From contig CM055112.1 in NCBI GenBank assembly GCA_029204225.1, forward strand, positions 27,475,063 through 27,539,062: DNA of 64,000 nt, written 5' to 3'. Below the pieces are notes generated by a model. The model was not told where the DNA came from, made no database searches, and was given only the letters and a program-made list of their open reading frames with translations. The stretch's first letter is position 1. The number at the start of each line of letters is the position of its first letter. Source of the stretch: Diphasiastrum complanatum. Its lineage: Eukaryota; Streptophyta; Lycopodiopsida; Lycopodiales; Lycopodiaceae. Position numbers and translations under genes: made by a program. This document shows, in pieces, positions 4,551-58,546 of the stretch.

Positions 4551-4602
4551 ATGGTGGAAAAAACCAAAGAGCACCATGAGTATGAGTGCCAACCTTTGCT
4601 TG
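4551..4602 (+). CDS. VHA-B: VHA-B exon 1 (start codon exon)
   Basis: 52 nt encoding a 17-residue N-terminus ([17 protein letters not shown]) plus the first base of a Glu codon. The ATG has A at -3 and G at +4. The donor GTGAGT at 4603 is near consensus, and phase 1 matches exon 2 exactly, giving ...QPLL-EYRTVSG. The N-terminus is the variable part of the family, so phase, donor quality and total length (486 aa) are the support, not homology. An upstream TTGCAG at about 4510-4515 could be the acceptor of a 5'-UTR intron. Confidence 0.7.

Positions 4603-58546: not shown

Follow-up and report, generated by a model that had tools for sequence, protein, structure and literature searches.

VHA-B, which encodes subunit B of the vacuolar proton pump (V-ATPase), is a housekeeping gene, and the copy described here raises the question of how such a gene can stay whole when a 40,531-bp intron filled largely with retroelements separates its first two exons from the rest. 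The window, that is, the whole stretch of DNA analysed, comprises 64,000 nt of Diphasiastrum complanatum sequence without any N. A first-pass annotation had placed in it a VHA-B gene at 4551-58546 that encodes a complete protein of 486 residues; its coordinates proved exact to the base, and 14 plus-strand exons joined without an internal stop into a coding sequence of 1,461 nt, including the stop codon, within a genomic span of 53,996 bp.

The two leading exons lie at 4551..4602 (exon 1, 17 residues) and 7501..7556 (exon 2, 19 residues). Exon joining placed the remainder, all likewise on the plus strand, at 48088..48186 (exon 3, beginning GPKYQEIV), 48398..48457 (exon 4), 49097..49208 (exon 5), 50092..50300 (exon 6), 50395..50523 (exon 7), 54584..54721 (exon 8), 54905..55055 (exon 9), 57363..57445 (exon 10), 57581..57628 (exon 11), 57755..57808 (exon 12), 57974..58057 (exon 13) and 58361..58546 (exon 14 with the stop codon), and GT-AG ends were found at 13 of 13 introns. 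The protein reached 952.9 bits over residues 18-485 against the NCBIfam equivalog TIGR01040 (V-ATPase_V1_B; cut-off 804.65), and three Pfam domains were found along it: the beta-barrel (PF02874, residues 22-88), the nucleotide-binding domain (PF00006, 145-375) and the C-terminal domain (PF22919, 381-480). Solved V-ATPase B subunits match it over nearly its full length (7uw9_F, residues 12-485, E 5.3e-298), and the protein P0004, whose TRINITY-type name we take to denote a de novo RNA assembly, is 95% identical to it over 98% of the length. The gene at 4551-58546 is an intact land-plant VHA-B. Scans of the whole window for tRNAs and Rfam families found nothing.

Because the 40.5-kb intron links exactly exons 1 and 2 to the remainder, whether these two short exons are genuine is the crux. 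Eighteen of the 19 residues of exon 2 are identical in each of P0004, Marchantia, Riccia fluitans and Calypogeia, and 15 in Selaginella; with P0004 as the query, tblastn recovered this exon at E 1.8e-5. Exon 1 shares 10 of its 17 residues with both P0004 and Marchantia P0008, and both also have its end, EYECQPLL, of which Riccia, Calypogeia and Selaginella carry variants differing at one or two residues. The N-terminus that the two exons supply is thereby common to all five, with few substitutions, and is similar to liverwort and lycophyte proteins. Judged by sequence comparison, the agreement with P0004 (18/19 and 10/17) is far above chance. A further sequence, P0241, carries the same 17-residue run as exon 1. 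Its frame stays open for 369 codons of a 1,214-bp contig, passing the sites of introns 1-9, and diverges from the family sequence beyond NRQ, where junction 10 lies; the contig, of unstated type, could derive from spliced RNA or from a copy poor in introns. No second copy of exons 1 and 2 was found inside intron 2 by tblastn with six VHA-B relatives as queries, where the alignments consisted of exon 3 matches overhanging at their upstream ends and a single match without significance (E 0.86). On this homology, exons 1 and 2 are genuine VHA-B exons.

Intron 2 (7557..48087, plus strand) lies in phase 0 between K36 and G37, so that LDKVK and GPKYQ are indeed joined as adjacent residues despite the 40,531-bp gap, and its length exceeds the VHA-B coding sequence more than 27-fold. 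It has GT-AG ends and the correct phase between conserved exons, the features by which we recognise a spliceosomal intron expanded by transposable elements. The description of its splice sites as good at both ends proved right for the acceptor, which falls among the best 0.11% of the window's AGs under leave-one-out scoring against the other sites of the gene; the donor, AAG/GTCAGT, is ordinary, with 10.2% of window GTs scoring as well or better on the same leave-one-out basis. Nor is this a gene with a single long intron: intron 2 is dominant, as first described, but introns 7 (4,060 bp, with a Copia insertion), 1 (2,898 bp) and 9 (2,307 bp) are long as well.

We wondered how old the position of this intron is. 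Gene models elsewhere sometimes retain a piece of an intron or skip an exon, leaving an alignment gap at the intron site, and we compared such gaps with the VHA-B junctions in 120 listed VHA-B proteins, the best 120 of 7,996 matches. We found 171 gaps of at least 5 aa and used 73 of them, setting aside the C-terminal tail and two variable regions, the N-terminus and a loop at residues 182-204. The excluded parts contain junctions 1 and 6, and 11 junctions were tested. Within 1.5 residues of one of these 11 lay 63 of the 73 gaps, a count that is not a probability because the proteins are related, sharing ancestry and annotation pipelines, and their gaps are not independent. By comparison, 5,000 random sets of 11 positions matched a mean of 7.3 gaps and a maximum of 36. 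Every tested junction was matched by at least three gaps, and the exon structure of this VHA-B gene is evidently shared with seed plants, as far as these protein alignments reflect it; a Rosaceae survey gave, in its accessible portion, no usable exon detail for a comparison of gene structures.

Junction 2 itself is marked in three of the 120 proteins, from Gossypium barbadense (P0003), Glycine soja (P0083) and Gossypium anomalum (P0101). In P0003, ten residues are inserted between LDKVK and GPKYQ, exactly at the junction, and a gap in Camellia P0066 falls within 2.5 aa of it. These gaps at residue 36 are indirect evidence that the position of intron 2 is old, older than the insertions it now holds. 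Both lines of evidence, the homology of exons 1 and 2 and the age of the intron position, strongly favour a real intron that has been enlarged over a chance match or an invented exon.

The stack of retrotransposons described at first pass is borne out by nested LTR pairs and retroelement domains. Transposable element spans cover 32,849 of the 40,531 bp of intron 2 (81%), a figure that includes about 4.2 kb called LINE-like from weak matches, and about 7.7 kb is without an assigned element. Self-comparison of the window revealed five LTR pairs in the intron. Three belong to a triple nest of minus-strand, Ty3-like elements: the outermost, A (29233..47006; LTR K2P 0.076), encloses B (34478..46247; 0.020), which in turn encloses C (36788..43262; 0.037). 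Pfam matches to capsid/gag, protease, reverse transcriptase, RNase H and integrase were found across the nest, with a chromodomain in C, whose flanks, TGGAC and CGGAC, match at four of five bases. The Ty3 ORF at 37288-38961 has no close relative, its best-scoring match being 57% over the whole length; the match to Adiantum is 59% over 64%, and Ceratopteris is also among the named matches. LTR divergence is greater in A than in C, the expected direction for an outer element (p 0.03); B is nominally younger than the C it encloses, a difference that is not significant (Fisher p 0.21).

Upstream of the nest lie two further LTR elements, both on the minus strand. D (22433..26970; LTR K2P 0.031) is Copia-like, RVT_2 being the domain that we take as the mark of Copia elements, and has a primer-binding-site motif on the minus strand at 26692, a motif that we assumed to give the strand of an element. 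E (16558..22433; LTRs at 16558-16943 and 22050-22433; K2P 0.061) was oriented from a degenerate primer-binding-site-like motif only. The left LTR of D starts exactly where the right LTR of E ends (22429-22433), with no target duplication for either, and no target-site duplications were found at the placeable boundaries of A, B, D and E. Minus-strand LINE-like fragments occupy 8027..12208, where the ORF at 11235-11987 gave a weak RVT_1 match (23.5 bits against a cut-off of 29.6), the ORFs at 8027-8761, 8745-9257, 9874-10971 and 11840-12208 gave no Pfam family, and self-comparison linked the fragments to a related piece at 26995-27474. Long GA/AG dinucleotide arrays are present at 6931-7002 in intron 1, at 11443-11574 in intron 2 and at 60024-60100.

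The reading that we favour, with a probability of roughly 0.9, is of an intact VHA-B gene whose old intron 2 has grown to 40.5 kb by repeated retroelement insertion and is transcribed through and spliced in cis. Retroelements would have inserted repeatedly into the old intron, one Ty3-like element being hit by a second and the second by a third. RNA polymerase II would then transcribe through the entire stack, and the spliceosome would remove the intron in cis via the conserved donor and acceptor, joining K36 to G37; we infer both transcription through the stack and cis-splicing over 40.5 kb. By analogy with other plants, discussed below, early polyadenylation inside the intron may be prevented by silenced chromatin over the elements, acting with an IBM2/EDM2-type system.

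An assembly artefact, in which exons 1-2 and exons 3-14 came from different places, or from a gene with a shorter intron, and were misjoined via repeats, is very unlikely. The joining DNA is repeat-rich, the usual site of misjoins, and nothing anchors the DNA near 12.2-16.5 kb and 27.5-29.2 kb, to which no element was assigned, so that a misjoin in the unassigned sequence keeps a small probability; however, the window is free of N, and exons 1-2 and 3-14 are complementary parts of one protein whose phase and order match. Moreover, the correct nesting of A, B and C and the paired LTRs of D and E give internal coherence to each of two spans, 16.5-27.0 kb and 29.2-47.0 kb.

Insertion might instead have severed exons 1 and 2, leaving a copy that is dead or yields an N-truncated product from about 48067, with a functional VHA-B elsewhere. 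Exon 3 does read open upstream to an in-frame ATG (48067..48087, plus strand), a possible false start, but we consider this account most unlikely: every one of the 14 exons still has an open frame, and the protein retains 95% identity to P0004; the ATG and both splice sites have survived, as has exon 2 (18/19 against P0004); and a product starting at 48067 would be without residues 1-36, including the start of the beta-barrel domain at 22-88. Intactness is nevertheless a weak test of such breakage, because LTR K2P values of at most 0.076 leave too little time for decay to be certain. We also dropped LTR divergence as a proof of selection on exons 1 and 2, the same values being too low for a useful test.

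We regard the start at ATG 48067 as an annotation hazard rather than a product. The first-pass annotation had foreseen that a gene finder would probably miss exons 1 and 2 and begin a truncated gene near 48 kb, and the risk is real: tblastn with P0004 gave no exon 1 match at E < 1, Marchantia P0008 matched exon 1 at E 0.24, and the reading frame of exon 3 extends upstream to the false start. Mis-called first exons of VHA-B do occur elsewhere, as unrelated residues replace the sequence before YRT in Kingdonia P0023, Colocasia P0052 and Cocos P0061. The locus thus shows where automatic annotation could shorten such genes, and provides precise coordinates for the correct model: exons 1 and 2, the possible false start at 48067, and a candidate 5'-UTR acceptor.

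This last site, at 4516/4517 (tgattctgtggcttgcag/GTTCGG), lies 34 bp before the start codon and is one of the highest-scoring 0.2% of the window's AGs, delimiting a candidate 5'-UTR exon segment at 4517..4550 on the plus strand. The nearest upstream in-frame stop is the TAG at 4524; should the exon begin at 4517, translation would therefore have to start at 4551. The acceptor suggests a 5'-UTR intron with an untranslated first exon upstream, placing the start of the gene further upstream; if so, VHA-B would exceed 54 kb in length. Between the candidate acceptor and any upstream exon, at about 3.9-4.2 kb, is a DUF659-containing stretch that is probably transposon-derived, DUF659 being a mark of hAT-like transposons.

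Every ORF in intron 2 with a retroelement Pfam match is antisense to VHA-B, on the minus strand, as is each of the three primer-binding-site matches. The first Pfam scans of the intron covered minus-strand ORFs only; on the plus strand, no retroelement domain was found in 20 of the 32 intron 2 ORFs of at least 75 aa. The plus-strand scan yielded a low-complexity match on the GA array and, in the ORF at 47472-47774 near exon 3, a sub-threshold match to Mannosyl_trans2 (PIG-V; 19.7 bits against 22.4), which may be chance or another captured gene fragment. Antisense insertions number seven of seven in intron 2 (p 0.016, two-sided), with three of the seven calls, E and two LINE-like pieces, weakly supported, and seven of eight once the intron 7 Copia is included (p 0.07); for LTR elements alone the counts are five of five (p 0.06) and five of six (p 0.22). 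Transposable element remnants flanking the gene, at 3884-4243 and 60859-61398, are also on the minus strand. In the accessible portions of the published work, an antisense bias is reported for human endogenous retroviruses in introns (PMC1794541), and no orientation bias in a rice survey (PMC7145194). We do not claim an orientation bias as a finding. It is doubtful that the antisense layering reflects selection, only insertions without sense-strand polyadenylation or splice signals having been tolerated; were this so, VHA-B would be a natural record of the insertions that an essential transcription unit can bear.

Intron growth by transposable element insertion is a known phenomenon. The rarity implied at first pass for a 40.5-kb, element-filled intron was not upheld, as introns comparable in length and composition have been described in ferns and conifers, which makes intron 2 biologically ordinary for a plant with a large genome. 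In the accessible part of the Ceratopteris richardii genome article (PMC9477723), 17,745 introns longer than 10 kb are given in the text and 25,269 in a figure legend, with 706 genes longer than 100 kb and gene length uncorrelated with expression; large introns are the presumed reason why some MADS-box genes escaped similarity-based prediction. As in VHA-B, insertion of transposable elements into introns there yields exceptionally long genes, although that account is genome-wide whereas a single gene is dissected here. For giant sequoia, the available text (PMC7642918) reports a longest intron of nearly 1.4 Mb and ascribes low BUSCO completeness to long introns; very long introns are likewise kept in its high-quality gene set, but its maximum is more than 30 times the length of intron 2, in another taxon. 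By contrast, introns of Isoetes sinensis average 426 bp according to the portion available (PMC10541799). That VHA-B exons 1-2 and exons 3-14 are two transcripts joined in trans is extremely improbable, as nothing specific beyond the length of the intron speaks for it, and such introns and far longer ones are reported in fern and conifer gene models, making it unnecessary.

A plausible route to full-length mRNA in cis-splicing of VHA-B comes by analogy from angiosperm genes with element-bearing introns. In Arabidopsis, the accessible text (PMC10241880) describes read-through RNAs over several kilobases of heterochromatic transposable elements, in which the IBM2/EDM2/AIPP1 pathway suppresses cryptic polyadenylation; in rice, OsIBM2 is described as critical for proper mRNA production through heterochromatic introns at dozens of loci (PMC7145194, in the part available). 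We infer that a comparable silencing and read-through system may operate at intron 2; the accounts of IBM2-type machinery considered here are of seed plants, Arabidopsis and rice. A limited literature search found no published account of the VHA-B gene in this organism. The locus offers a clear example of a housekeeping gene that has remained whole although a single old intron has expanded to over 27 times the coding length; the evidence suggests as new points the candidate 5'-UTR acceptor at 4516/4517 and the in-frame ATG at 48067 as the possible start of a truncated model.

Insertions are also present further downstream. Intron 7 holds an internally deleted Copia-like element at 51194..53063, on the plus strand and hence sense to VHA-B, with an LTR K2P of 0.018 (7 substitutions over 402 positions) and an exact 5-bp target duplication, GATGC; lying in sense, its LTRs could supply signals for polyadenylation. 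Intron 9 contains a plus-strand open stretch of 34 codons (56565-56666) that resembles mitochondrial gamma carbonic anhydrase 2 (7ar7_y, E 4.9e-10), with a Pfam Hexapep match below cut-off and a possible donor (gtattt) after it; it is perhaps a gene fragment carried by a transposon. GC-rich repeats (AGAAGCCCGTTCCG...) lie on either side of this fragment, at 56393-56474 and about 57028-57070, and again downstream at 59543-59619; the first and last of these are 82.9% identical, and the repeats are perhaps the ends of a family of non-autonomous elements.
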